From IMG/VR virus record IMGVR_UViG_3300043675_000007, positions 1 to 64,000 of that record: 64,000 bases of DNA. One strand, 5' to 3'. A program made the translations under genes and the position numbers. This document shows, piece after piece, positions 1 to 64,000 of this stretch. Numbering within the stretch: the first letter of the stretch is position 1; every line of letters starts with the position of its first letter. The stretch comes from a virus. The notes below the pieces were generated by a model. That model had not been told where the DNA came from. It ran no database searches and was given only the letters and a program-made list of their open reading frames with translations.

Positions 1-3000
1 CTGACCGGACTTCGCCAGCATCGAGGCGACCACCTGTTGCAGCGGCACGCCGCCGGCGGCGATTGCGGCGGGCAGCTTCTCCACATTGCCCTTCACCGCC
101 AGGCGCATATCCGTCTTGCCGTACAGGTCCATCACGCTCGGGCGCTTCGCGTACGTCGCGCTCGAGTAAAAGGTACCCGCGGCCTGGCCGGACAAGCCAC
201 GGGCGAAAGCGGCGCGGCCGGTTTTGGCGCTGCCACCATCCATCTCTTCCTCTTTCTTGTTGCGTCGGCTCGCATCGGAGCCGCCGGCGTTGTGTGATTC
301 ATCGAAAATCACCGCAGCGCGCCGCGCGAGGGAGTTCAAGAGGTTCATGCGGGAAGTCGCGAGGCCCTTCACCGTCTGCATCTGGTTATAGGTCGTAAAG
401 AGCATGTTGAAGTTGCCCATGCTCGATTCATCCGCCATGCGCTGGAGCATGGAGTTGTGGATGTTGCCCGCGGCGGTCTTGATTTCGCCGCCGCCATCGA
501 GGGGCACGCGCTGTGCGGCATTGGTCATCAACGGGCGGATGTCCTCCATGCCGATGTCGCGCAGATCCCGCACCATATCGGCGTAGAGATTCGGCTTCTC
601 AGTGACGAAGACGGGGATGCGCCCGTTCTTGATGGCCCAGCGAATGACGCCCGCGACCACGCGCCCTTTGCCGACGCCGGTCTGATCGCCAATGATGAAA
701 CCGGAATTCTTGCCCAACTGCTCGAGCGCCAGGCCCAGTGCATCGACCTGCTCGGCCGAGAAGTAGTGCGAAATCTGCTTGGGCGCGTAGCCCAATTCCT
801 TGGCTACATACTCATCGACGGGCCCGACGCGGGATTCCAAGGATTTGAGCGAGTCCGCGATGGAGTCGCCCATGTTGCCGGGGACGAGTGTCCCGATGGC
901 CTTTGATTTGCTGGCAGGGCGGTACGCCCGTTGCCCTACACCACCTGACCCATCAGCGATGCCCACTGCAGAAGGGAGTCCGCCGGGCTGTCCTTGTCCG
1001 CTAGCAGCGATCTCCGCGCGGCTAGGTTGTCCGTCGCCGGCGCGCTCTTCAAGTGCCGTATCGCCTTGAAGACCCCCAAGGAGTCCAGCTTCTCCCACAC
1101 GCTCGGGTTGTTCGCCACCAGCCTCGATCCCACCTCGTGCAGCGGGCAGTGGCCCACTTCCCTCACCAGGCCCGAGCGCGCGAATTCCTCCTGAAACATC
1201 ACTGAGATGTTGCGCGGGTTCGGCGAGGCCTCGACCATCGCCTGTATCCGATCCCCGAGGAAGCTTAAGTACAGCGGTCGGTCCATTGAATGACTCGCCG
1301 GGCACAGCACTGAGACCAGCAAGAGTTTGCTCGGCTGCTGGAGCGGGGAGAACGCGATTTGCGTTGACGGCGCCATAATCCTTGCCCAAGACATCAGCGA
1401 TTGCTGCGTAGCTATCGTACACCCGGGGAGGCGCGGCAGCCGGTAAATCCAGCGCGCTCTTGCCGGCGCCGTGCACCACGATTATGTCAATCGGCCAGGC
1501 CGCACCTTGCCTCGAGTACATCTCGCCGGCCACCGTGAAGTGATCGACCACGTTGTAATTGCCGTACAGGTGGTAGTAGAACTTGCGCTTGGCCGCACCG
1601 TTATAGGCATCGGAGCGAGCCTCCCGGGTGCGCGCCAGTTTGTTCACGCCGCCGACGAGAAGCACCGCGCGCCCGTCCGGCTTCATCGCTTTCAGTTGCT
1701 CGAGGACAATCGCATGATCAATTTCATTAGTTTTGACGAGGTGGCCCGCGGGGGTCTGGACACTAAATCCCTTGGATACGCCGCCTGCATCTTTCACTAC
1801 GCCAAACGGTGGGTTAGCGATGAGGACATCGACTCCATGAGCGAGGGCCTTCGATGTCGCATCTATGGATGTGACCCGAAACCCTTGAGCCTTCAAGGAC
1901 GCCGCGCGGCCCGGGTTAATCTCATTTACGGTGGCTTTTTCGGGAGCAGCGGCGATCAAGAGCATGCCATTGCCGGCGGTCGGCTCCAGGACAGTTGTCT
2001 TCGGGGTAATGCCAGCGAGGTCCGAGGCCAAGAAGGCGAGTGGCGCCGGCGTGCTGTACGCCTGCTCTTCGACGGAAGTGCTAGTTCGAGTGGAGAGGTT
2101 CGGCTGTCGCTCGTAGAGGGCAACCAACTTATCGAACGTAGCCTTCGGCTCGTCTGCTTCCGCAACAATGCCTCGCGCCTTCTCTACGATGGCGCGCTCG
2201 ACGAGTTCGTCAACCGCTTTGATAGCTGTGCCGGTGGGCTTACTCCCGGTTTCAGCCTCATAGGCCTTGCGGTAGTCGGTGAGTGGTCGGGGCTCGGCGA
2301 GCAGCTGGCCAAACTTGGTGAGGACACGCTGCGCGGTGTTGGCTGTATAGGGGTTCCCACCGACTAGTTCGGCTTTGGGATTGCGCGCCTCGTCCGCCGC
2401 CGCCTCATCCGCGTGCAGCTTCACCGCATCCTGCGCGAGCTTGATGGCCTTTTTGTCCCCAGCCTTCTGCGCATCCGCGAGGTACTCATTCAGCGTCGCA
2501 TCGTCCAAGTGATTCAGTTCGTGCACATCATCGATGGGCTGGAAGGGCTCTAGCCGTTCTGCGGCTTCGCGCGCGAGCTGCTCCGTGTGGGCTTCATTGC
2601 GTGAGCTATAGTGTGGCCGCCCGCCAAGTTCATCCGCGATTCTGTCCAGAAGCGCGTTCGGGTCGTAGTGTCCTTGCGCATCGTGTACGGAGTAACCAGC
2701 CTCATGCAGAAGTTCAGCAGCGTGATCGAATGTGATCCCATCGCGACGGAAGGCACGCTTTATGCCCGCGTGAGCCGCAGCCAAGTCCATGTCGGCACGG
2801 TCGATGCCCTGGGCCTGCGCTTCCCCGGAGCTGAGGCCCCTGGGATGGCGTGCCAAGTACTGAAGGATGGAATCCTGGCGCTCATCCGGCCCGCGCATGA
2901 CCGGCGCCTTGCGCTCGGCGGGCTCCTTCCAGGCGACCGGCTGTTCAAGATTGCCGCTATTGAGCCATTCCTTGAACTTGGCCGGGGACATCTTCGTGAT

Positions 3001-5997
3001 GGCGCCTAAGCCCTTCCAGCCATCCTGGTAGTGATCGAGGTACAGTTTGCGCGCCGCGTCCGCGCCGTTGACGCCGAGCACGACCTTGTGCTCATCGAAC
3101 GCCTTCCCATCCGGTGTCGTCTGATCGATGACGTAGGCCTGGCCATCACCATCGGACGAGCCACCGCCGTGTCCTAAGAAGACATCGACACCATCGCCGT
3201 CCGCACCTTGCGTTTTGGTGAATTCGCCGTAGGGCACACGCATCTTGCGCTTGCCCATCGAGCCATCAGGGAACTTGAAACTGCGAAATGAGCCGGCGGG
3301 GTTCTCGATGCCGATCGGCAACCCGTGCCACGAGGTGCGGGACTTGATCCGCGGCTCACCGTTCGGCGCTAGGTCTTCTTCTTTGGCGGCAGTTTGACCT
3401 TTGCCAGTTTGAACCCCTGCTTCACCAAGTGCGACGCGCGCGCCTGGAGGCTGCTCCCCGCGGGATGCACGGAGGCCTTCGGTTTCCCGTCCGGACTTTG
3501 CCGCGGCCAGGGCGCGCTCAGCTTCTTCAAGGTTGTTGCCGGTGCCATGGGATAAACCTACTCCTTTGAGTTCGACCGTTCTACCGTCGGCGTGTTTGAA
3601 CGTAAGCGTTGCCCCCGCCAGGCGCTCTTTCGCATTCGCCAGGGCAGACTCCGCTTGGGTCGCATCGTCACCTTGCACGACAAATTCATCGCCGGATATG
3701 TGATAGGCATTGCCGCCTGACTCCTCGTGTAGAGCCTGCGCCACGGACTTGAGCAGTTCATCGCCGCCCGCGTGGCCCGCGTTATCGTTCACCCACTTCA
3801 AGCTATCCACATCGACCGACACCTGCGCCGGCTTCTTCTGCGAATCCTCGTACGCGCGCCGGTTGGGGATGCCGGTGAGTTCGTGCGTGAGCAGTGCCGC
3901 CTTTGCCTGATCCGGGGTCATGTCGGTGACCCGCTGGCGCAACTCCCCTTGCGTGCGCCGCTCCGCCGGAATCGGCTGCGTGCGCTCGAGCGGCCCTTCG
4001 CCGGCGGCCGTGACGTCGTTCAGGGTGGTGGGTTTCTCCCCGGTTGTTACCGGGTTTTTATCGGGGGTAGAAACTCCCGTGCCTACGAGCTTGCGCGCGG
4101 TGGCCATCGCCTGACGAGCTTCGGTAACAGTCTCAAAACGTGAGACTGGCTCGCCCTTGACGTGCACGCTCCAACCCTCTTCCTCCGGCTCCAAGGTCAC
4201 ATCGGAGCGCTTGGTCGCGGCCGCCGCCGCGGTGTTCAGCGTCTCTTGTTTTTGGGCAAACGTTGCACCAGAAGGGCCTTGCGTTGCACCTGGAGGCTGT
4301 TTCGTCTCGGCATTTGGTGTATCCGTTCCAATTTGCCGCTGCGCTGGCTGCGCGCCGGTGGACTCATACTTGCCCGTGGTGTCATTCCACTTAAAGCCTG
4401 GATACGTGTCAGCACTAGGCGCCTTCGGGGGCGCACTGAAGTTATAGGATGCGGTGCGTACGCGGTTCAAGAGATCGTCAGCATCCAAGTTGCGCTGCAC
4501 TTTCGCGCGACCTGGCGCACCCATCGCTTCGTGAGCCGCGGCAATGGGCGCGGCGGTGATCGCGGAGACGACCCCGGTGTAGGCGATGTCCTTCAAGGCA
4601 TCGGCCAGCGTCGTGTTCTCGTGCACGATGCCGGTGTCGACCGCCTTCTGGATGGCCGCCTGCACCACACCGCCCGCACCGTTCGCCACCATTGCGCCAG
4701 CGACGCGGCCGCCCGCGGTCTTGGCGACCGCCGCGCCCACCATGCGATCGAGCATGGCCTTTCCGACCGGGGACTTGGCGAGCACGGATGAGACCGGGAC
4801 CGCGCCCACGGCATCGGAGAGTGCGTAGAAGAACCCGGCGGTGTTCGCGATTTTATCGGAGCTCGCCGCGAGGTCGTGGGCCTGCTGGCGAATGTCGCTC
4901 GTGATGGGATTCAATCCGCGCTTACCGCCGACCGGCGCGGCATCATCGAGGGCATCCGCTTTCTGGAGCAGGCGGTCGACCTGGTCATCAATCTTGTCCT
5001 TCACCTGCTCGCGCTGCGCGGGGGCAAAGAGTGCGACCGCGGTAGCGCCGCCGGCGGCCACACCGACGCCAGGACCACCGACCGCTGTTCCACCGATCGT
5101 GGCACCGAAGACGGCGGCCATCTCAGGAATGGCGAGTGCGGTGTTGAAAGCGAGTCCTTTCACCGTCCATGGGTCGAGCTTGCCGTTCAATAGGTCCGAA
5201 GGCTGCCAGACCTTCTCATCAGCCCACGCGGTGAGGCGCTTATCCTTGCCCTTCAAGACATTGTCCTGCCCATCGAGCATGGTCTGGCGCGCTTCGGCCA
5301 TGGCATCGCCCTGATTCTCGGCGGACATGCCGGCAATGAGTGTGTACTGGCTCGCGAAGACTCGCGGATCCAATCCCAGGGAAATGGCGGTCTTCTTCAC
5401 CAAGGGGTCTTTCGCCATCGCATCAAGACCTGCGGCCGGGTTTTGCGGGTCCACGTTCAGGCGTGCAGCAACCTGGGGCAGCACATTCAAGGCGGCGGTC
5501 TGCATCTCGGCGCTTTGCACTTCGGAGGCGCCGCGCGTCTCCTGGTAGCCCGCTCCAATGCGCGAGAGCTGCGCCTTCAATACGTGCGGGTATGCCTTGG
5601 CGAGAGTTTCCCAATCGGGGCCCGCGGTCGCAGCGTCGAACTTATCTCCAACAGTTTCCGCGACGGACGGCACGATGCCGGTCGTGTACTGAGTGTCCGC
5701 ATCGCCGGTGGAGGGCGCGTGACCGAAGAGCGTATCGCGCGTCGCCTCATAGAGTGAGCGCTCATGCGGCGGTGTCGGGGCCTTCTTCGGCGCGGCGATC
5801 GCATTCGCCGGTTTATCCGGGCCGACCGGCTTCCAGGCATTCGCCTTGAACTGCTCAATCGGCTGATCCTGCCCGACCGGCTGCCACCCTTCGATCGCAT
5901 TGCCTTGAGGTGCAGCGGGTGCCGCCGGTGCAGGAGTCGGCTGCGCACCTTCTGCTGCGGGAGCATCAGGCGCCGCGGCTATCCATCCGCCGCCCAT
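1..5997 (-). CDS. Giant polyvalent protein, N-terminal 1,999 residues (GGDEF-like, InPase, N6-adenine methylase, strawberry-notch helicase); runs off the left edge
   Basis: Open from an ATG at 5997 to the window edge with no stop, in frame to base 1. Order seen: Pro/Ala-rich N-terminus; Gly/Ala-rich hydrophobic stretches near residues 280-320 and 400-480, candidate membrane-active segments; a GGDEF-like domain at about 700-806 (ELTGIPNRRAYE, NDNAGHAGGDELL, SGDEF near 768); an inorganic-pyrophosphatase-like (InPase) domain at about 880-1015; a methylase with NPPFGV near 1395; a helicase with Walker A GDQTGVGKGR near 1769 and IFDESHNAGG near 1897, then YSSATYAKRPS. The methylase plus DESH-box helicase order matches DarB-like anti-restriction polyproteins that are injected with phage DNA. 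The stop of the upstream gene lies 1 bp before this start. Function as an ejected anti-defence protein is inferred from the family. Confidence 0.9.
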   Translation of the reverse strand, partial: MGGGWIAAAPDAPAAEGAQPTPAPAAPAAPQGNAIEGWQPVGQDQPIEQFKANAWKPVGPDKPANAIAAPKKAPTPPHERSLYEATRDTLFGHAPSTGDADTQYTTGIVPSVAETVGDKFDAATAGPDWETLAKAYPHVLKAQLSRIGAGYQETRGASEVQSAEMQTAALNVLPQVAARLNVDPQNPAAGLDAMAKDPLVKKTAISLGLDPRVFASQYTLIAGMSAENQGDAMAEARQTMLDGQDNVLKGKDKRLTAWADEKVWQPSDLLNGKLDPWTVKGLAFNTALAIPEMAAVFGATIGGTAVGGPGVGVAAGGATAVALFAPAQREQVKDKIDDQVDRLLQKADALDDAAPVGGKRGLNPITSDIRQQAHDLAASSDKIANTAGFFYALSDAVGAVPVSSVLAKSPVGKAMLDRMVGAAVAKTAGGRVAGAMVANGAGGVVQAAIQKAVDTGIVHENTTLADALKDIAYTGVVSAITAAPIAAAHEAMGAPGRAKVQRNLDADDLLNRVRTASYNFSAPPKAPSADTYPGFKWNDTTGKYESTGAQPAQRQIGTDTPNAETKQPPGATQGPSGATFAQKQETLNTAAAAATKRSDVTLEPEEEGWSVHVKGEPVSRFETVTEARQAMATARKLVGTGVSTPDKNPVTTGEKPTTLNDVTAAGEGPLERTQPIPAERRTQGELRQRVTDMTPDQAKAALLTHELTGIPNRRAYEDSQKKPAQVSVDVDSLKWVNDNAGHAGGDELLKSVAQALHEESGGNAYHISGDEFVVQGDDATQAESALANAKERLAGATLTFKHADGRTVELKGVGLSHGTGNNLEEAERALAAAKSGRETEGLRASRGEQPPGARVALGEAGVQTGKGQTAAKEEDLAPNGEPRIKSRTSWHGLPIGIENPAGSFRSFKFPDGSMGKRKMRVPYGEFTKTQGADGDGVDVFLGHGGGSSDGDGQAYVIDQTTPDGKAFDEHKVVLGVNGADAARKLYLDHYQDGWKGLGAITKMSPAKFKEWLNSGNLEQPVAWKEPAERKAPVMRGPDERQDSILQYLARHPRGLSSGEAQAQGIDRADMDLAAAHAGIKRAFRRDGITFDHAAELLHEAGYSVHDAQGHYDPNALLDRIADELGGRPHYSSRNEAHTEQLAREAAERLEPFQPIDDVHELNHLDDATLNEYLADAQKAGDKKAIKLAQDAVKLHADEAAADEARNPKAELVGGNPYTANTAQRVLTKFGQLLAEPRPLTDYRKAYEAETGSKPTGTAIKAVDELVERAIVEKARGIVAEADEPKATFDKLVALYERQPNLSTRTSTSVEEQAYSTPAPLAFLASDLAGITPKTTVLEPTAGNGMLLIAAAPEKATVNEINPGRAASLKAQGFRVTSIDATSKALAHGVDVLIANPPFGVVKDAGGVSKGFSVQTPAGHLVKTNEIDHAIVLEQLKAMKPDGRAVLLVGGVNKLARTREARSDAYNGAAKRKFYYHLYGNYNVVDHFTVAGEMYSRQGAAWPIDIIVVHGAGKSALDLPAAAPPRVYDSYAAIADVLGKDYGAVNANRVLPAPAAEQTLAGLSAVPGESFNGPTAVLKLPRGSDTGDGRGLAEPAQHLSDVSGGIRALGPGEGSGPLPAARGGIEAGGEQPERVGEAGLLGGLQGDTALEERAGDGQPSRAEIAASGQGQPGGLPSAVGIADGSGGVGQRAYRPASKSKAIGTLVPGNMGDSIADSLKSLESRVGPVDEYVAKELGYAPKQISHYFSAEQVDALGLALEQLGKNSGFIIGDQTGVGKGRVVAGVIRWAIKNGRIPVFVTEKPNLYADMVRDLRDIGMEDIRPLMTNAAQRVPLDGGGEIKTAAGNIHNSMLQRMADESSMGNFNMLFTTYNQMQTVKGLATSRMNLLNSLARRAAVIFDESHNAGGSDASRRNKKEEEMDGGSAKTGRAAFARGLSGQAAGTFYSSATYAKRPSVMDLYGKTDMRLAVKGNVEKLPAAIAAGGVPLQQVVASMLAKSGQ

Positions 5998-5998
5998 G

Positions 5999-7282
5999 CT
6001 ATTGCAGCGTCGTCGGCGCGCCCGCTACGCGCGTGGGCTTACCGTCTATGCCGACCGTCCATTGGCCCTTGGCGCCGAAGTCTCGGACCATGCCGGGCTT
6101 CAAGCCTGAGAGCGCGGTGGCCGGCGGGGGCTCGGACACCAGCGGAGCATTCTGCTTAGGGATGGCGTGCGCACCGTAGTTATCAAGCACGTACTGATCG
6201 GCGCCGCGCTTCGCTTTCTCGGGGTCCATGGTGGCCGTGAGCAGGGCCTTGTACACGTCCTTGTGATCCCCCGCAGGATTTCCGCTCTTGGCCTTGAAGG
6301 CCACGTGCGCCGCGGTGTCCTCATCCACGCCCAGCACTTCGCTTAAGTACTTGTGGTTCCTGATCTGCGCCGTGTCGCCCTTGTCAATGCCACTCCCGGT
6401 GGTGCGCCCGAGCACCTTGCCCTTGTACGGTTTGCCGTCGATGCCCGTCACAGGCTCGGCGTGCGTCTTGCCGTCCTCATCGCGCACCATCTGCATGACC
6501 GTGCCGTCGGGCGCGGTCGAATAGGTGGCAGGCCCCAAGCTCGAGGCCTTGGTCGTGGTGACATCGTTCGCAGCTTTGAGTGCCTGGGCGTTGTTCCTCG
6601 TCTCCGCCGAGTAGTCCAGATTCTGCTTCGATTGCGCGGCCTGCGCCTGCGCCGGCGTACCGATACCTTTCTGCTCTTCCTGACGCCCGGATTCGATCGC
6701 ATTCGCCGATTCGTCGTAGTCCTTTTGCTTCTTTGCAATCAGGTCCGCATGTGCCTTGTTGTTCGCATCGGTCTCATCCGAGAGCGTGCCCAAGGCCACC
6801 GCGCCCTGATTGGTCGACGCGCCGGCGGAGTTCTTCATCAGGTGAAGGCCGAAGGTCACGAGCGCGGCGAGCTTCTCGGTCTTGCTCTGCGGCTCATCGT
6901 CGGCCGGACGCGCGCCGATCTGCTTCTTTAGGTTGTCGTACTTATCATCGATGTCCCCGTGCTGCTTCTCCCACCAGTCCATGTAGTCGGTGCGAGATTT
7001 GGGCTTCATCGCGTTCAACAAGTCGAGCGCATTGTTCGCCTTGGCGAGCTTCTTCGGATCGTACTCGGGCGGCGTTGCAGGCCCAGTCTGAATGGTGCCC
7101 TTCTGCCCCGGCGCGCCCTGCTGGATGGCATTGGGCTGCTGTCCAGGCTGCGCAGGAGCAATCGGTGCGGGTGCCGTGGGGGTCGATCCTGGCGCACTGG
7201 GTGCGCCCTGGACGGGACCTAAGCTCGGGGTGGGCTGATCCTCGAAGGCGTCCGTGGGCGGTGCGATGCTGCCGGCTGCCAT
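5999..7282 (-). CDS. Putative internal virion / ejection protein
   Basis: 427 residues with no catalytic motif that I recognise. Residues 1-75 are Pro/Ala/Gln-rich; residues 80-250 are charged and predicted helical with many Lys, Asp and Gln residues; the C-terminus has a short beta-rich segment (QWTVGIDGKPTRV). The gene sits between another Ala/Asn-rich protein and the polyprotein, with 1-2 bp spacing on both sides, the place where podoviruses carry internal core or ejection proteins. The role is inferred from position and composition only. Confidence 0.7.
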   Translation of the reverse strand: MAAGSIAPPTDAFEDQPTPSLGPVQGAPSAPGSTPTAPAPIAPAQPGQQPNAIQQGAPGQKGTIQTGPATPPEYDPKKLAKANNALDLLNAMKPKSRTDYMDWWEKQHGDIDDKYDNLKKQIGARPADDEPQSKTEKLAALVTFGLHLMKNSAGASTNQGAVALGTLSDETDANNKAHADLIAKKQKDYDESANAIESGRQEEQKGIGTPAQAQAAQSKQNLDYSAETRNNAQALKAANDVTTTKASSLGPATYSTAPDGTVMQMVRDEDGKTHAEPVTGIDGKPYKGKVLGRTTGSGIDKGDTAQIRNHKYLSEVLGVDEDTAAHVAFKAKSGNPAGDHKDVYKALLTATMDPEKAKRGADQYVLDNYGAHAIPKQNAPLVSEPPPATALSGLKPGMVRDFGAKGQWTVGIDGKPTRVAGAPTTLQ

Positions 7283-7284
7283 GG

Positions 7285-8319
7285 CTAGCCTCCCAACGTA
7301 GAGGAAAGCCCGGAGATGCTGCTGGAATCAAACGATGGAGCGCTTGCACTGGTTGCTGCATCACTGACTGAGCCGCCGGAAGCGAAAGCGGCATCTGGCG
7401 AACTATTGCTGCTACTGGTACTGCCGCCACCGAAGAGGCCAGCGACCGTGGAGCCCAAGCCCATCAGCTGATTCGCCGTGTTGCTTTGTACGGGGGCGGT
7501 CTGCGCGGGGGATCCCTTCGCGGTGCCCACCGCACCGATCAAGCTTTGCAGCTGCTGCGCGCTCCAGCCCTGCTGGCGCATGAACTGACCGTACTGATTG
7601 GTGAGGTCCGTCTGGTTGATCGCCTGCGACACGCCGCCGGTTTTCATGAGATCGGAAATCTGCGCCGAGTTCATGTTGGTGAGGTCCTGACCTGCCGCCT
7701 CGTAGGCGTTCGAGGCATTCAATTTGGTCTGGTTGTCGGCCTGCCAGTTGGAAAACGCCGTGTCGTAGGCTTTCGCGTTGCTGTCGGCGGTCAATGTCCC
7801 AATGTTCATCGCATTGGTGGAGGCCATGTTCGACTCAGCGATGGCATTGCGGCCCCCGCCAAAGGCGCTCGAGCCCGCGGCATTCTCTTTCAATCCCGCG
7901 AGTGAGGTGAGATAGCTCTTGTTCTGATTGGCGATCGCATTGTCCGTCACCTGCTGGGTGTACGGATTCATGTAGGTTTGCGCGGTCTGCGCATTCCACG
8001 GGTTATTGGCGACTGCATCGATCTGACCGGTGGCCTTGGCGTTATCCGCCTGCGCCTGGCCGGCGTTCGCGACATTCGAAGCCTGGCTGTAGCCCTGCTG
8101 CTCGTTGCCCGACATGGGCGCGGTCAAGGTGCCGGTGTATGGGGTAAACGGCGTATTGGCGATCGTCGAGGCGTCATTGAGCATCGTGCCCTGCGCGGCA
8201 CCGATCTGCGCCGAGGTGGCGTTATTCGCCTTCGCCGTGCCCGCCGCGGCATTGTTCGACATGATCGACTCGCCCGCGCCGACCACCGCGACCCCCGCCG
8301 ATACCCATCCTGCTGGCAT
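7285..8319 (-). CDS. Putative DNA-ejection / internal virion protein, Ala/Asn/Gln-rich
   Basis: 344 residues, strikingly rich in Ala, Asn, Gln and Ser, with a short hydrophobic N-terminus (GVAVVGAGES), helical repeats such as SSAFGGGRNA, and a Ser/Gly-rich tail. Small phage proteins of this type, with a hydrophobic start, an FTPYTG-like motif and a helical body, are common next to ejection proteins. It shares the base pair at 8319 with the upstream hydroxylase-like gene and ends 2 bp before the next gene, so the three are probably co-translated. No enzyme motif is visible. Confidence 0.75.
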   Translation of the reverse strand: MPAGWVSAGVAVVGAGESIMSNNAAAGTAKANNATSAQIGAAQGTMLNDASTIANTPFTPYTGTLTAPMSGNEQQGYSQASNVANAGQAQADNAKATGQIDAVANNPWNAQTAQTYMNPYTQQVTDNAIANQNKSYLTSLAGLKENAAGSSAFGGGRNAIAESNMASTNAMNIGTLTADSNAKAYDTAFSNWQADNQTKLNASNAYEAAGQDLTNMNSAQISDLMKTGGVSQAINQTDLTNQYGQFMRQQGWSAQQLQSLIGAVGTAKGSPAQTAPVQSNTANQLMGLGSTVAGLFGGGSTSSSNSSPDAAFASGGSVSDAATSASAPSFDSSSISGLSSTLGG

Positions 8320-8996
8320 TAGTCACCGCTCCATTGGTAGTTCAGACAGACGGTGCTTTCCAGTTTCAAACAGATGATGAGCGTGATGCGCTCTTCGTCC
8401 GTCGGGTTCTCCACCCAGTGGGGTTTGGAATTATCGAAGGCGTATAGGTCCCCGGCCTTCGTCTCGAGTTTCATCGAGTCGTAGCAGAACTTCTGCCCCT
8501 CCGCGGCTTTCAGCTGCACGGCGAACTTCAGGTAGTGCTCGGCATGCCAGCCCTTATCCACATGCCGGCCGACTTTGGTGTGCGGCGGGATGCGCGTGAT
8601 GAGCACCATCCCTAGCCGCGTGGCGTAGAACCAGCGCATGAGGTCGAAGACCAGCGGTTGGATGGCGGGAAGTTTCTGATACGCACCCCACCAGACCGAT
8701 TCGTGCTCTTCGTTGAAGTCCTGGCGGCTGCCGTTCCAATTCTTCCAATCGTTGAAGCGCACGATGATGTCATCGATGCGCTGATGAGGACTGCCGGCGT
8801 AGGCCCCGCCGGTGCGGAACACATTCTCATTCCAGAGCTCCGGATGCGCCGCAAGCTCATCGAGCAACGGCTGCACCAGCACACCTCTGTGCAATAGTCG
8901 CACAGGCTCGAGCGGCGGCGGGGCGGCGGGCACCAACTTGAGCGCAGGCTTGCCCTTGCGCTTCGTCCTGGTCTTTGGTTTGACGACTGCGTTCAC
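8319..8996 (-). CDS. Aspartyl/asparaginyl beta-hydroxylase-like Fe(II)/2-oxoglutarate oxygenase
   Basis: 225 residues from a GTG at 8996. I chose this start because it overlaps the upstream TGA as GTGA and has AGAGGG just before it; an in-frame start at 9089 would overlap the sulfotransferase gene by 97 bp. The core shows KVGRHVDKGW, whose H-x-D would supply two iron ligands, and a later KPHWVENPTDEER whose His would be the third, followed by a beta strand (ITLIICLKLE). This is the cupin layout of Asp/Asn hydroxylases. The substrate is unknown; pairing with a sulfotransferase-like gene suggests a modification module for virion or host-surface molecules, which is inference. Confidence 0.75.
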   Translation of the reverse strand: MNAVVKPKTRTKRKGKPALKLVPAAPPPLEPVRLLHRGVLVQPLLDELAAHPELWNENVFRTGGAYAGSPHQRIDDIIVRFNDWKNWNGSRQDFNEEHESVWWGAYQKLPAIQPLVFDLMRWFYATRLGMVLITRIPPHTKVGRHVDKGWHAEHYLKFAVQLKAAEGQKFCYDSMKLETKAGDLYAFDNSKPHWVENPTDEERITLIICLKLESTVCLNYQWSGD

Positions 8997-9508
8997 AAAA
9001 AAGCCCTCTGTACTCGCTCGCGGAAGTCTCGAGCGCGGTCTCGTGAGACAGCGACCCGGGTAAATTCGGGGTCGATGTGCATGCGGCACAGGTGCGCATG
9101 GCGCACGCGATCATGCAGGCGGTGGGTCAGGTGCTCCCAGATGGGGGCGGCCAGCACCGTGTTGAAGAGGTGCGGGAAAGGCACGTGCATGCCATGGATC
9201 TTCTCGAGCGCGCCATCCCAGAGGCTGGACAATTTGGACAAGCCCACGCCCTCGAGGGAGCGGTTGATCTGCTCGATGGGGCGATGGACGATGATCTTGC
9301 GGGCCGGGTGGGCATTGACGAAATCGGGGAACAGGGCGAGACCTGTGCAGGAGACCCCGAGCGTGCGATCAGAATCGATGCAGTCCAAGTCTTCGGGGGC
9401 GAACTCGAGGATGGGGTCGTGCAGGCAAAGCGTGTCTGCCGTAGTGAGCCAGTTCGACATCCACGTGCTGCCCGAGCGCGGCGCAGACAACACCATGAAT
9501 TCGATCAT
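8993..9508 (-). CDS. Sulfotransferase-like P-loop protein
   Basis: 171 residues from the ATG at 9508, which has AGGGG about 7 bp upstream; an earlier in-frame ATG at 9532 lacks this. The N-terminal LSAPRSGSTWMSNWL is the 5'-phosphosulfate-binding loop of PAPS-dependent sulfotransferases, and IIVHRPIEQINRSL resembles the 3'-phosphate-binding strand and helix. It is shorter than cellular enzymes (250-300 residues), so it may be a minimal or divergent version. It is the first gene after dyad element a (9589-9603) and overlaps the hydroxylase-like gene by 4 bp. Acceptor unknown. Confidence 0.7.
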   Translation of the reverse strand: MIEFMVLSAPRSGSTWMSNWLTTADTLCLHDPILEFAPEDLDCIDSDRTLGVSCTGLALFPDFVNAHPARKIIVHRPIEQINRSLEGVGLSKLSSLWDGALEKIHGMHVPFPHLFNTVLAAPIWEHLTHRLHDRVRHAHLCRMHIDPEFTRVAVSRDRARDFRERVQRAFL

Positions 9509-9562
9509 GCACTGACCCCTTTGACATCGCACCGTAAGAACGGCGCGGGAAGGGGTTCGATA

Positions 9563-11874: not shown

Positions 11875-14010
11875 CTATCTCTTCGCGTAGGGCGTCGCCA
11901 ACCCCTGCCAGATACCCATCCTAAAGCTACACCCGGGCGAGGGCGCGCCGGCATTGGTGAAGTTATCGAAGCGAATCACGATCTGCGAGCCGTGGGCATC
12001 GATGTCGACCTGGCCGGTCGCGAAAGTAAATGGCACGGGGCCCGCGACCACATAGGAGGCATCCTGCGGGCGGTCTTTCGTTTTCAAGTAGATATTCATC
12101 GTGCCGGTGAAGTAAGCCCAGTCGGGCAGCATCGAGAGCACGCGCAGGTGGCTGTCCGAGCCGCCGATAGCAAAGCGCGCATCCGAGCCGCCCATGGTGT
12201 ATTCGCTTTTCGCCCCGCCCGTGGTGATGTCCAATGACTCCATGAAGAAGGGGATGGCGCTCGTGCCGGCGAGCTCCACCGCATCCTTGCCCACTTCATG
12301 CTGATACAGAAACCCCGCATTCACCCCATAGGGCTTCAATCCCATCGCCGGTGCCATGCCCTTGGCGCAGGTGCGATTCCACGCGCCGTAGTACCAGACC
12401 CCGTCCTCCCAGTTGTAGGAGACGTACCGATCATTGCCGATGAAGGTCGCGGCCGCGCTGACAGCGCCAACCATGGGGAGTGACCAGGTTGCACTCGTCG
12501 CCCCCGCGGTCAATTGCACCGGACGGCTCTCCTGATCGGAGAACTGCAAGTCATAGAGGCCGGTGGCGCCACCCCACGGCGCATTAAGCGTGGCCGACAC
12601 CGCTCCTTGCGCAATGCCGGCGGTAAAGGCCACGGTGAAGGCACCGCCGATGGACTGGTAGAGCCAGGTGATTTCGGTCTTCGGCTCGAAGGTGTAGCAG
12701 ACCACACCTTCGGCCTGCGCGCGATTTAAGCTAAAGGGATTGTTTGGATCAAAGACCGTCGGCCACACATCGCAGGCGAGTAGGTTCAAGGTACCCGAGT
12801 AATTGTAGAAGTTGTCAAACCCCATGCAGTAGGCGACCCCATCGACGTCCTCCGCCGCATTGGGGCCAACAATCGCCATCTGGCCGGCCGGGACAAAGTC
12901 ATAGATGTCCGTGCCACCAACGAAGACCATGCGGTACAGCGTGGTGTCGGTCCAAATGAGGTTCTGCCCCTTGGTCTTGCACCCCGTAACGATCCTCGAG
13001 CCGGCCGTGAGCTGGTAGTCGCCGGCGGTATTCACCGCAGTGGGAAACCAATCGGTGATGTCATCAAGTGAGCACCAGCGCACGAGCATTGCATCGAAGT
13101 TCGAAGTCACATCGGTGCATCCCAATGCGATGACCACGCGCTGCGCGGCATCGACGATTACTCGCTGTACCCCCTGCGGCGCATTGATGATGATCTGCGC
13201 GCGGGTATTCGGACCTGACACACGCTCCCAGATGTAAATCTCGCCGTCGGACTCCGAGGCGATCAAATCCTGTCCAAAGTTATCGAGTGACCAATTGCGC
13301 ATGCGCGCAAAGACCCCGGTGCCGGCCGCGCGTGGCGTGCCATAGGTCCCGGTCCCATAGGTGCCGGTGCCATAGCCGAGCAATTGCCCGTTCGCGCCCA
13401 AGCCTGTGTAAATCTCATAGGCGATGGAGAAGTTGCCCCCGCCGGTGGCTCCGCTTGTCGCGGCGGACGCGGCGGTGATGTTGTAGGTATTCGGGTCGAG
13501 CACCGTCACCTCAAAACTGCCCGACAGCGTCAGGCCGCCGACGGCCGTGGCACCTGAGAGGTCGACGAAGTCCCCAGTATTTGCTTTGTGCCCCACATCG
13601 GTGATGAGCACGATCTTCGAGGCGTTCGTGGTCGTGATCGCATTCGTGACGTTCGAAGTCGCGCGAATCGGGGTGATGTCGTACAGCACCCCGTTGTTGA
13701 CCACATAGAGTTTTAAGTGCGTGCCGATCGCTATCCAGAATTGCCCGTCGATCGAGGCCCAGTCCTTCAATCCTCGAGCGATGCCGGCATAGGTGGCTGC
13801 TGCGCCTGCGGCAGGGTCAACGAGGGCCTGGAATTGCCAGCCGCCTTGCATCTCGGCCAACAGCTTATGCCAGCGGACCCAGGTTGAATCCTTCCAGCGG
13901 TCCCAGTTCATATAGTTGAGGCGCGTCTTCGCCCCGCGGCCCGTGGTGTTGGTGAGCACACCAGGGCCTAAGGGAATGGAGACGTACTGCGCTTTGCGCG
14001 GGCCTGCCAT
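11875..14010 (-). CDS. Tail-hub / nozzle-like structural protein (P22 gp10-like organisation)
   Basis: 711 residues. It opens with VSIPLGPGVLTNTTGRGAKT and contains a long run of beta repeats (GQFWIAIGTHLKLYVV, YGTGTYGTGTYGTPR, DNFGQDLIASESDGEIYIW) typical of podovirus tail stabilisation or nozzle proteins that form a beta-propeller ring. Around residues 470-525 a separate about 50-residue beta module is inserted (GLYDLQFSDQESRPV), also found in two other proteins here. The C-terminus has FATGQVDIDAHGSQIVIRFD. Position next to the fibres and adaptor agrees. The exact family name is uncertain. Confidence 0.7.
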   Translation of the reverse strand: MAGPRKAQYVSIPLGPGVLTNTTGRGAKTRLNYMNWDRWKDSTWVRWHKLLAEMQGGWQFQALVDPAAGAAATYAGIARGLKDWASIDGQFWIAIGTHLKLYVVNNGVLYDITPIRATSNVTNAITTTNASKIVLITDVGHKANTGDFVDLSGATAVGGLTLSGSFEVTVLDPNTYNITAASAATSGATGGGNFSIAYEIYTGLGANGQLLGYGTGTYGTGTYGTPRAAGTGVFARMRNWSLDNFGQDLIASESDGEIYIWERVSGPNTRAQIIINAPQGVQRVIVDAAQRVVIALGCTDVTSNFDAMLVRWCSLDDITDWFPTAVNTAGDYQLTAGSRIVTGCKTKGQNLIWTDTTLYRMVFVGGTDIYDFVPAGQMAIVGPNAAEDVDGVAYCMGFDNFYNYSGTLNLLACDVWPTVFDPNNPFSLNRAQAEGVVCYTFEPKTEITWLYQSIGGAFTVAFTAGIAQGAVSATLNAPWGGATGLYDLQFSDQESRPVQLTAGATSATWSLPMVGAVSAAATFIGNDRYVSYNWEDGVWYYGAWNRTCAKGMAPAMGLKPYGVNAGFLYQHEVGKDAVELAGTSAIPFFMESLDITTGGAKSEYTMGGSDARFAIGGSDSHLRVLSMLPDWAYFTGTMNIYLKTKDRPQDASYVVAGPVPFTFATGQVDIDAHGSQIVIRFDNFTNAGAPSPGCSFRMGIWQGLATPYAKR

Positions 14011-60480: not shown

Positions 60481-63400
60481 TCAGGCAAATGCCTCCAATG
60501 ATTCTGAAACGCGGGGGCGCGGCCGCTCGGGCATCGACTCCCACAGTTGGGCGAAAGCCGGATACCCTGCGGCCCTCAAAGCCGCGACCGCGTCAGGCTT
60601 ACTCTTCCCCTGCACCAAGCCGCTGATCTTGTCGGCCGCCTCCGCAGCCTTGGCCTTGTCGGTCTTGATCTCTCCCTGCGTCTCCTTCAAGTGCGTCTTC
60701 GCCTTGATGATTTCCTCGCGCAGCTTCTCGGCGCCCTTGACATCGTTGCCCTGCATCGCCTGTTTGTAACGGCGGTTGAGGCCCCGCAGGTAGCTTTGCT
60801 CTTCCTCGCGGTGCTGATACCGCTCCATCTGTTCGGGCGACGTCACACGCGCCGGCGCCGGGGTCAACCCGAAATAGGGGGCCGCGGCGAGCGCCTTGCC
60901 GCGCGCATCCATCGCACCGGCGCCTACGAACTGCTTGGTGCCTTGAATTGAGAAGGGCACCACCTCGCGCCCAGCGTATGCCGCGCTTTCCTTGAGCTGC
61001 GTCCAGAAGTCCTGATCAGAGGTGCGGATGGCATTGCCGTAGAAGTCCTCGTTCGCATAGATCGCGTGGATGATCCCGAAGACCGGATTCGCCTTGTTGA
61101 TCAGCGTGGTCATCGGCTGGGTGCCGTACTCGTACAGATCCTTGGTATAGGCAGGCAGCGACATGCGCTCCGGCGTGCCGTACTTGGTTTGGCGCCCGGT
61201 CGGCGGAAAGAAGTAGTCCTTGGTGTCCTTCGGATTCTTGCCGGTGAAGAGGCGCGTGAGCATGGCGCCGATGATCATGGTCACGGCGAGCAAGCCGATG
61301 GTGTAGGGGATCTTGTGCCCGACCTTATCGGCAATGCGGTTGAGCAGGCCCTTCGCACGTATGTACTCGAGGCGCTCCGGCGCATCGTTCACCAGGCCCG
61401 CTTCCGGCAGCTCGGGCGGGGCGCCGCGGGCGAGGTAGTCCAGGAGCTTCACCACATCGACGGGCGCACCGCCCAACTCGCGCACGGTGCCTAAGTTCCA
61501 ACCCACCGCGCGCACCGCCATGTGGTTCACTTCCTTGAACGTGCGATTCCAGAAAAGATTGTCGTACACCATCTCGCCCAAGCGATTGTCGACCGAGTCC
61601 CAAATCTTCTGCATCGCATTGGCGAAGTCGATCGGGTTCTCATCCGGATTGCGCCGGATGTGATCGCGGGCAAGGTCCGAGAACACGCCCAGTTTCTGCA
61701 AGGGGACGATGTGCTCCATGATGATCGAGGTCGATGCGCGCACGGTGCGCCCGGCTACCTCGAGGGGGACCTGCAGCGCGGGAATTGAGGACTCATGCCA
61801 CATCTGTTCAAGATCGCGCCACAGCCGCGTCGCGTACTCGCGCGGAAAACTCGCCAAGGCCTTGCCGGTGTCGGCGACCTTGCTCTGAGACTGGGTCATG
61901 ATCTGGCGGATCTCGGAGGCGAGTCCTGCAAACCCCACGCCTTTGAACGGGGATTGGCCCTGGCCGGCCATGTAGTAGGTGTCCATTTTTACCCGGCCGC
62001 CGGCGGCGGTGAGGCCCTCGATGATCTTCTGCATCAAAGGATCGGCCGCCCCAACGTTGGTATAGGCCTTGCGCAGTGCCATGCCGCGCTTCAAGTTCAT
62101 GCCGGCGCCGCCGAGGAAGGTTGAGGCCTCGAGCCACGCGCGCACCGCTCCGATCGGCTCCCCGTGCAACAGCCGCTCAACGCCCAAGGCCGCCTTGGAG
62201 ACGACCGCATCTAAGGTGGTGAAGCCTAAATGGAAAGCCGAGAAACCCAACTGGAGCGGGGTAACCACGTTGGTGAGCGATCGGAACAGCTGCGCGGGAA
62301 TAAAGTTGCGCAGGGCTGATTCGCCCAGGTGGTTATTAATGATTCTCCCAGCATCGGCCGGCATGATGTAGTAGCCGCGGATGACGAAACCCTGCTCGTG
62401 CTCACTCCACTGGAGCACACGCCCCACCGCATCCTTGATCTTTACCCACCCCTCCGGCATGCGCTTCTGCGCGGGGAGGAACTTCGCGAGGCCTTCCTCC
62501 TTCAATCGCTGCACGAGCTTGGTGCCGGTGATGAAGCGCTCCATTTCCCGCACCTTGGCAAATGCCAGGACGAGGGGGTTGGTGCTCACGGGGATCAAGC
62601 CCTTTTCGATGCCTTCTTCGGTCGTCGGGATCGTGCGCTGCTTTAGGAAACTCGCGGGGCCTTTGAGCGGCCGGCTGCCGAAGATCGATGCGAATATCTT
62701 TTTCGCGCCGTTCGGATCCTTCCAGATGTGCGGGAAGTAGTTCTCGATGAAGCTCTCGAGCGCCCCCACGCCAAGATCCTGCACGCGGGTGCGGGTGTCA
62801 TCGAGCAGATTGCGAATCGCGGTAGCCGCGCTGTCGTGCTCGGGCAGGGGCTGCGGATCGCCGGCCTCCATCGCATAGATGAAGTTTAGGCGGTCATCGT
62901 GCTTGAGCAGGTCGAAGGCCTTGGCGTACTTCTCAAGGTTCGAGAGCGCCTCTTCGGACTTGTGCGCGAGCTGGCCCAACTCATCGCGGGTGAGATTGGC
63001 CGTGGCCTTGGCGAGGTCCGAGACTCCGGAGGGGTCCAGGATGCGCCGGAATGACATCGTGATTTCATTGCCCGGGATGGCCTGCACCGCTTTGCGTCCA
63101 AGATCATAGGCGGCGGGGATCACGCCGCGCCTTGGGCCCGGTGCCGCGCTCTTCGGCCGGCGCTTCAAGAACATCGGTTGCCCAAGCATCAGGGAGTCGC
63201 GCATCGCCTGCGTGATCTTCACCATATGTACGGGCAGCGTTTCAGCGCCATTCACCGCCTCGAGGGCAGCCTTGGCGGTTGCGAAATCCCGCTTGGTGTC
63301 GTCGGGCATGTAAGCCCACCACTTGCCATTCTCGAGCAACACGCCGTAGCCACCGTCGGACGGCCGCACGGTGAAATTCATCCCGGGATTCTGGGCGGCA

Positions 63401-64000
63401 TGGTCCCTGGCCACGGATTCGACTCTATCCATGGACACGTTGTGTGATTGCGGGAAGCTATCGGCGCTGTGCGCGAGGACATCAAACGCTTGACTGCCGA
63501 CGCCACCGACTCCGCCGGGCTCAACGCTCGAGCCGAAGCGCTTGACGATCGCCTGCACCTTCTTCGGCAGGATGTCATCGTAGAAGCCGCGCATGCCGTG
63601 GCCGCCGACTTTGAGATCTTTGCCAACCAGCGGGACCAGATCGCCTTCCTCGCCCTTGGAGATTGCCTTCTGCGCCGCGTCCTTACCGATCCACGTGGCT
63701 AGCTTCTCATCGGTGAGGCCGTATTCCTCGCGGATGGTCTTGCCGTCTTTCTTCGCGACGAAATCATACGTACCGTTTTTGAGGTTCTTGCGCACGTTGA
63801 TGAGGTCCGCCACGTGCGACATGTTGTAGCGCTCGGCGTTGGTGTCGCCGGTGTCCCAGGAAAGGGCGTCATACCCATGTTCCGCGGCGTAGCGCAGCAT
63901 CCGCTTCATCGCGAGCTCCGGCCAACTCGTCTTGAAGGGGGCATTGGGCACGCCTTCCGACTGCCGTGCATAGAGTTCGGCGTACTCAGAGCGGAAGGTG
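60481..64000 (-). CDS. Giant polyprotein, C-terminal about 1,173 residues (LPD-type), enters from the right edge
   Basis: No start inside the window; the frame runs open to base 64000 with ARQSEGVPNAPFKTSWPELA near the edge. SWPELAMKRMLRYAAEHGYD and then ADLINVRKNLKNGTYDFVA match the large polyvalent-protein-associated domains. A long Ala/Leu-rich helical body follows; one TM (IPYTIGLLAVTMIIGAMLTR); and a coiled-coil C-terminus (EEEQSYLRGLNRRYKQAMQG, KTHLKETQGEIKTDKAKAAE). It is probably the C-terminus of the same gene as 1-5997 if the genome is circular. Gene stops 1 bp before the lysis genes. Confidence 0.8.
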   Translation of the reverse strand, partial: TFRSEYAELYARQSEGVPNAPFKTSWPELAMKRMLRYAAEHGYDALSWDTGDTNAERYNMSHVADLINVRKNLKNGTYDFVAKKDGKTIREEYGLTDEKLATWIGKDAAQKAISKGEEGDLVPLVGKDLKVGGHGMRGFYDDILPKKVQAIVKRFGSSVEPGGVGGVGSQAFDVLAHSADSFPQSHNVSMDRVESVARDHAAQNPGMNFTVRPSDGGYGVLLENGKWWAYMPDDTKRDFATAKAALEAVNGAETLPVHMVKITQAMRDSLMLGQPMFLKRRPKSAAPGPRRGVIPAAYDLGRKAVQAIPGNEITMSFRRILDPSGVSDLAKATANLTRDELGQLAHKSEEALSNLEKYAKAFDLLKHDDRLNFIYAMEAGDPQPLPEHDSAATAIRNLLDDTRTRVQDLGVGALESFIENYFPHIWKDPNGAKKIFASIFGSRPLKGPASFLKQRTIPTTEEGIEKGLIPVSTNPLVLAFAKVREMERFITGTKLVQRLKEEGLAKFLPAQKRMPEGWVKIKDAVGRVLQWSEHEQGFVIRGYYIMPADAGRIINNHLGESALRNFIPAQLFRSLTNVVTPLQLGFSAFHLGFTTLDAVVSKAALGVERLLHGEPIGAVRAWLEASTFLGGAGMNLKRGMALRKAYTNVGAADPLMQKIIEGLTAAGGRVKMDTYYMAGQGQSPFKGVGFAGLASEIRQIMTQSQSKVADTGKALASFPREYATRLWRDLEQMWHESSIPALQVPLEVAGRTVRASTSIIMEHIVPLQKLGVFSDLARDHIRRNPDENPIDFANAMQKIWDSVDNRLGEMVYDNLFWNRTFKEVNHMAVRAVGWNLGTVRELGGAPVDVVKLLDYLARGAPPELPEAGLVNDAPERLEYIRAKGLLNRIADKVGHKIPYTIGLLAVTMIIGAMLTRLFTGKNPKDTKDYFFPPTGRQTKYGTPERMSLPAYTKDLYEYGTQPMTTLINKANPVFGIIHAIYANEDFYGNAIRTSDQDFWTQLKESAAYAGREVVPFSIQGTKQFVGAGAMDARGKALAAAPYFGLTPAPARVTSPEQMERYQHREEEQSYLRGLNRRYKQAMQGNDVKGAEKLREEIIKAKTHLKETQGEIKTDKAKAAEAADKISGLVQGKSKPDAVAALRAAGYPAFAQLWESMPERPRPRVSESLEAFA

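Follow-up and report, generated by a model that had tools for sequence, protein, structure and literature searches.

A phage-type GGDEF domain with conserved catalytic residues in a giant polyvalent protein

The polyvalent gene and its neighbours

The window, that is, the whole stretch of 64,000 nucleotides analysed here (positions 1 to 64,000 of the 68,555-bp viral record IMGVR_UViG_3300043675_000007), opens inside a giant gene on the minus strand. Positions 1..5997 encode the N-terminal 1,999 amino acids of a polyvalent protein of 4,594 aa, whose frame is open at the window start and crosses the start of the record; its C-terminal part lies at 60481..63951 (minus), in a frame that continues to position 68553 of the record. 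Window positions 1-287 overlap the far end of the record (68269-68555) by 287 bp, with 98.6% identity and no amino-acid differences, despite the catalogue giving no end repeats for this record. Because of this overlap and of the reading frame running on, the phage genome is probably circular or terminally redundant, with the polyvalent gene spanning the join, and we take the protein to have 4,594 aa.

Besides the GGDEF domain described below (residues ~695-848; 3454..3915, minus), Pfam searches identified an InPase domain (PF18823, residues 885-1013; 2959..3345, minus) and the N-terminal part of a Strawberry-notch helicase (AAA_34, residues 1762-1998; 4..714, minus), whose C-terminal half, Helicase_C_4, was found beyond the record start. 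Between them, matches to PHROGs phrog_9133 and phrog_6263 delimit an adenine-methylase-like region (residues ~1303-1449; 1651..2091, minus). The GGDEF, InPase, methylase-like and helicase regions are thus joined in one polypeptide, which is encoded among late or virion genes, close to an ejection protein (phrog_4287) and a structural protein (phrog_3287). An earlier note on this DNA had called it a polyprotein; having no known cleavage, it is better described as a polyvalent protein in the sense of Iyer et al. 2017 (PMC5512222). The C-terminal half (record 62001-68555, minus) also contains an HExxH motif, AHEYVTH, which recalls the zincin-type peptidases found in other polyvalent proteins, although the Pfam search had no hit in the region of this motif.

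The gene directly upstream (5999..7282, minus) is also conserved upstream of the nearest relatives, and is preceded by a DNA ejection protein homologue (phrog_4287, E 1e-12; 7285..8319, minus), two genes upstream of the polyvalent gene; a virion structural or stabilization protein (phrog_3287; 11875..14010, minus) is encoded further upstream. In eight relatives, too, the giant ORF has a homologue of the phrog_4287-like ejection protein upstream of it. When 111 upstream genes of relatives were tallied, the annotated families included endolysins as well as internal virion and DNA ejection proteins, the latter two being among the commonest. It is this gene order, here and in relatives, that supports the packaging and ejection of the polyvalent protein, which the earlier note had presented as injected; a search of the literature for virion proteomics of any polyvalent member found none.

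Two further ORFs of this region, both on the minus strand, deserve mention. A 256-aa protein (8319-9089) is conserved upstream of six relatives; it carries a weak PHROG label of endonuclease V and resembles, by eye, an aspartyl-hydroxylase-like double-stranded beta-helix protein. A 179-aa ORF among the virion genes (8993-9532), starting MIEFMVLSAPRSGSTWMSNWL, begins in a way that resembles the P-loop of sulfotransferase-type or related proteins.

Fold and catalytic residues of the GGDEF domain

The Pfam GGDEF profile (PF00990) matches residues 707-835 of the giant ORF with a score of 41.1 bits (cut-off 23.8), and this is the sole GGDEF match of the 68,555-bp record, so that a chance event can be dismissed. 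An AlphaFold2 model, for which the input was the window domain plus 70 phage relatives, reached a mean pLDDT of 96.2 and a pTM of 0.90. The fold comparison proposed in the earlier note revealed the alpha/beta palm in this model: VIA-align gave a Z of 16.0 to both DgcR and DgcB, with an rmsd of 1.8 over 137 residues for DgcR, and the best Foldseek match in the PDB was DgcB with c-di-GMP (E 1.7e-8, TM 0.71). Among viral models, the best matches were a protein of 1,143 aa (TM 0.92) and the GGDEF protein of Bordetella phage CN1. The proposal of a diguanylate-cyclase-like domain is thus borne out by profile match, predicted fold and structure comparison.

The landmark motifs lie where they had previously been placed in the ORF at 1..5997 (minus), at residues 706-717, 737-749 and 765-772. 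The first, ELTGIPNRRAYE (3847..3882, minus), holds the turn motif LTGIPNRR and stands before the domain core. It is followed by VDVDSLKWVND (3784..3816, minus), with D729, the first metal Asp, kept as claimed, and N737, the guanine-contact Asn; residues 737-749 read NDNAGHAGGDELL and include D746 (3760..3762, minus), the GTP-selecting Asp at the position of PleD D344. The active-site turn, YHISGDEF (residues 765-772; 3682..3705, minus), has Ser768 in the place of the first Gly of GGDEF and His766 in that of the usual Arg, both substitutions being as first described, and the C-terminal signature of the subfamily, AAAKSGRETEGLRASRG (3457..3507, minus), includes K834. The interval 3580-3900 originally assigned to the domain holds the three motifs and ends too early: the domain reaches about residue 848 (window ~3454), so that the final helix, which carries Lys834, was omitted. 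By alignments to solved cyclases and the established PleD numbering, these residues are the equivalents of PleD D327, N335, D344, GGEEF and K442. At the place of the RxxD I-site, the window sequence reads ESGG. The first Gly of GGDEF is usual in active enzymes and the allosteric RxxD I-site is common in cyclases, neither being obligatory.

Residues D729, N737, D738, G745, G769, D770, E771 and K834 are invariant across 91 aligned sequences. The GTP-contact set is kept, as the guanine Asn N737 (91/91), the guanine Asp D746 (81/91, with N in nine) and the phosphate Lys K834 (91/91); the metal Asp, whose loss in homologues would have spoken against the domain as first described, is present in 91/91. 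Of the 91 sequences, 73 have S as the first residue of GGDEF, the others having G, K, A, H or Q. Because the search patterns, which included YHISGDEF and D-x-D..ND, overlapped these motifs, we recounted conservation in the sequences found without the pattern concerned: G769-D770-E771 are kept in all 56 sequences lacking the YHISGDE search motif, and D729 and N737 in all eight lacking the D-x-D search pattern, while K834 was outside every pattern of the second scan.

Other traits set the phage domains apart. The RxxD product-inhibition motif is absent in 89 of 90 phage relatives and present in one. The C-terminal signature K-x2-R-x3-G-x-R-x2-R, present in the window domain, occurs in 79/90 phage sequences versus 0/24 cellular cyclases. 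The segment between the LTG motif and the metal Asp is shorter in phages than in most sampled cellular cyclases, at 22-26 versus 33 residues; these are given as commonest values only, because the simple regular expressions used for the spacing statistics mis-anchor in some rows. No dimerization module was recognised N-terminal to the GGDEF domain. When the N-terminal 1,999 residues are compared with those of the two nearest relatives, conservation is highest in the GGDEF (81% and 69%), and dN/dS values are 0.14 and 0.20. This pattern fits an enzyme under purifying selection and not a decayed receptor.

Distribution and likeness to known systems

Single-sequence scanning yielded 28 viral loci and 18 loci in bacterial genome assemblies, several of the latter within phage-like giant ORFs; one alignment-based scan of IMG/VR yielded 123 viral relatives, 80 of which were kept. 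Nearly all examined viral relatives are located within ORFs of about 1,000 to 5,300 aa, and each of seven re-searched viral records contained a single GGDEF. Standalone versions were found in Yuavirus, Vojvodinavirus and a few viral contigs. Those of Yuavirus and Vojvodinavirus, of ~155 aa, are directly upstream of an anti-restriction gene (PF03230). The standalone copies belong to a non-structural gene block, upstream of terminase, so that delivery at entry would not be universal in the family.

The ORFs of 21 relatives contain, as partner domains, InPase (8), LPD22 (5), LPD38 (3), ART-PolyVal (3) and RadC (2), among others; that the partners differ between relatives suggests that the GGDEF works as an independent module. 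A coupling of GGDEF and InPase, by which a cyclase would be joined to pyrophosphate removal, was considered as a general rule and rejected, because InPase occurs in only 17/90 relatives, in some before the GGDEF and in others after it. Searches for a phage-encoded EAL or PilZ partner gave no match within this record.

In the tree, all 91 phage rows were split from 24 cellular GGDEFs with support of 100/98, in an analysis whose bootstrap was not fully settled and in which three long-branch bacterial rows fell on the phage side; we thus do not claim exclusivity to phages. The phage GGDEFs appear to form a widespread, largely phage-specific branch apart from the sampled cellular cyclases. Two loci of Crossiella (8001-8342 of each) encode proteins of 582 aa whose domain is a GGDD-type variant and sits on a very long branch.

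GGDEF domains of this kind had already been predicted in polyvalent proteins and annotated in YuA gp44, and it is the family that is now better defined. Iyer et al. 2017 (PMC5512222) predicted that GGDEFs of polyvalent proteins are delivered at entry and that their cyclic nucleotides interfere with host responses. Their example, a giant prophage protein of Acetonema longum (WP_004096050.1), likewise has a GGDEF beside a SWI2/SNF2 helicase and a methylase; however, the domain was there given one main-text paragraph and held to be 'not very widespread', whereas here one scan retrieved 123 viral contigs, the domains appear to form a branch apart from sampled cellular cyclases, and there is residue-level evidence for kept catalysis. 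YuA gp44 is annotated as a diguanylate-cyclase-domain protein and has been cited as such (PMC10333796). Together with the Vojvodinavirus proteins (Mesyanzhinovviridae), it resembles the window domain in sequence (37-40% identity), in its S/AGDEF and its C-terminal K..RE..G.RA.RG, and in its place within the phage branch, but these are free proteins of ~155 aa beside the anti-restriction gene, outside any polyvalent protein. The present analysis adds that these domains make up a definable YuA-type phage GGDEF subfamily, which is more widespread than had been described, strictly maintains its catalytic residues, has lost the I-site and links the polyvalent with the standalone forms.

Among cellular enzymes, DgcB, DgcR and PleD resemble the window domain in their palm fold (Z 15-16) and have the same residues for metal, guanine and phosphate, but the window domain has no RxxD, a shorter segment before the metal Asp, a different C-terminal end and no recognised coiled-coil or receiver partner. 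The Hypr GGDEFs, GacA-type cGAMP synthases, have the same fold and a base choice set by one position, at which they carry Ser/Thr instead of the D746 of the window domain (PMC6456294); by this rule D746 rules out Hypr/cGAMP specificity, and GTP is the expected substrate. The OptS/mCpol protein of Panoptes also has a related palm domain that makes cyclic dinucleotides in phage-host conflict (PMC12657218), but it is a bacterial defence protein in which the GGDEF motif is nearly absent, and the likeness is one of fold.

Function of the domain

The explanation that we favour, with a probability of roughly 0.6, is that the domain acts as a diguanylate-cyclase-type nucleotidyltransferase, catalytically competent, selective for GTP and free of product inhibition, within a polyvalent protein that is packaged in the phage particle. 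The packaged protein would be ejected into the host with the phage DNA, and in the cytoplasm two GGDEF domains would come together and convert GTP to c-di-GMP. Since the RxxD site is lost, the product would not act as a brake and few ejected molecules may suffice to shift host c-di-GMP, globally or locally, ahead of phage gene expression; the process affected in the host could be motility or sessility, or else its cyclic-nucleotide defences. In phage P22, each ejection protein is ejected in about 12-30 copies (PMC8402733), and by our own estimate a cyclase free of feedback and present in similar numbers could plausibly change a small c-di-GMP pool. Lysogens of Bordetella phage LK3, which is YuA-like and has a free GGDEF gene, form hyperbiofilms, with that gene as the candidate cause (PMC8471281), and phages can also raise host c-di-GMP by other means, as with the YIP peptides acting on YfiN that are cited in PMC9145820.

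Cyclase activity of the window domain is likely. With respect to Ser768, natural SGDEF cyclases include ECA3270, which is active, and MbaA, for which there is in vivo evidence of synthesis (PMC3974145, PMC8079147), whereas a Ser at the first GGDEF position abolished the activity of VCA0965 (PMC3974145). Ser768 by itself is thus no ground for denying membership or function, although SGDEF is not always tolerated. Weighing against the cyclase reading are the short segment from LTG to the metal Asp, the lack of a recognised dimerization module and the variable first GGDEF residue. Synthesis of c-di-GMP requires two facing GGDEF domains.

The last two of these traits, and the C-terminal signature common in phages and absent from the cellular cyclases sampled, would suit a GTP-using nucleotidyltransferase with a product other than c-di-GMP, such as a linear dinucleotide or GMP transferred to a host or phage molecule, in which the basic C-terminal end would stand in for the second protomer and bind the acceptor. 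We regard this as possible but not probable, because every GTP residue of canonical cyclases is kept and the predicted fold appears closest to enzymes that form c-di-GMP. It is unlikely, too, that the domain serves chiefly in counter-defence, as a virion-delivered cyclic-dinucleotide synthase of a phage-specific subfamily, with a basic C-terminal signature and no feedback site, that overwhelms or decoys immune systems sensing nucleotides within minutes of the start of infection; such a role would also account for the standalone copies beside anti-restriction genes.

The earlier note had left the choice between enzyme and decoy undecided. Degenerate GGDEFs are often receptors or regulators (reviewed in PMC3974145), and the Ser in place of the first Gly and the varying polyvalent partners would agree with a non-catalytic domain that binds GTP or c-di-GMP, whether as a decoy, as a sponge or as a switch regulating the remainder of the polyvalent protein. 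However, receptor-type GGDEFs typically lose catalytic residues or keep RxxD, whereas here the catalytic residues are near-invariant, also in sequences where the search did not select them, and RxxD is lost, which favours the enzyme and makes a mere binding role quite improbable. Finally, a structural module aiding the packing or threading of the giant protein, its fold kept for mechanical reasons only, would fit a gene placed after those for internal virion and ejection proteins, but fails to explain the invariant metal-, guanine- and phosphate-contact residues or the free copies of ~155 aa, and is very hard to credit.

If the domain is active as the cyclase that we favour, the phage particle would contain a second-messenger synthase, and host c-di-GMP could be altered before any phage gene is expressed. 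Because YuA and other cultivable Pseudomonas phages encode a free version of ~155 aa, a single small protein is enough to put the 2017 prediction directly to the test.
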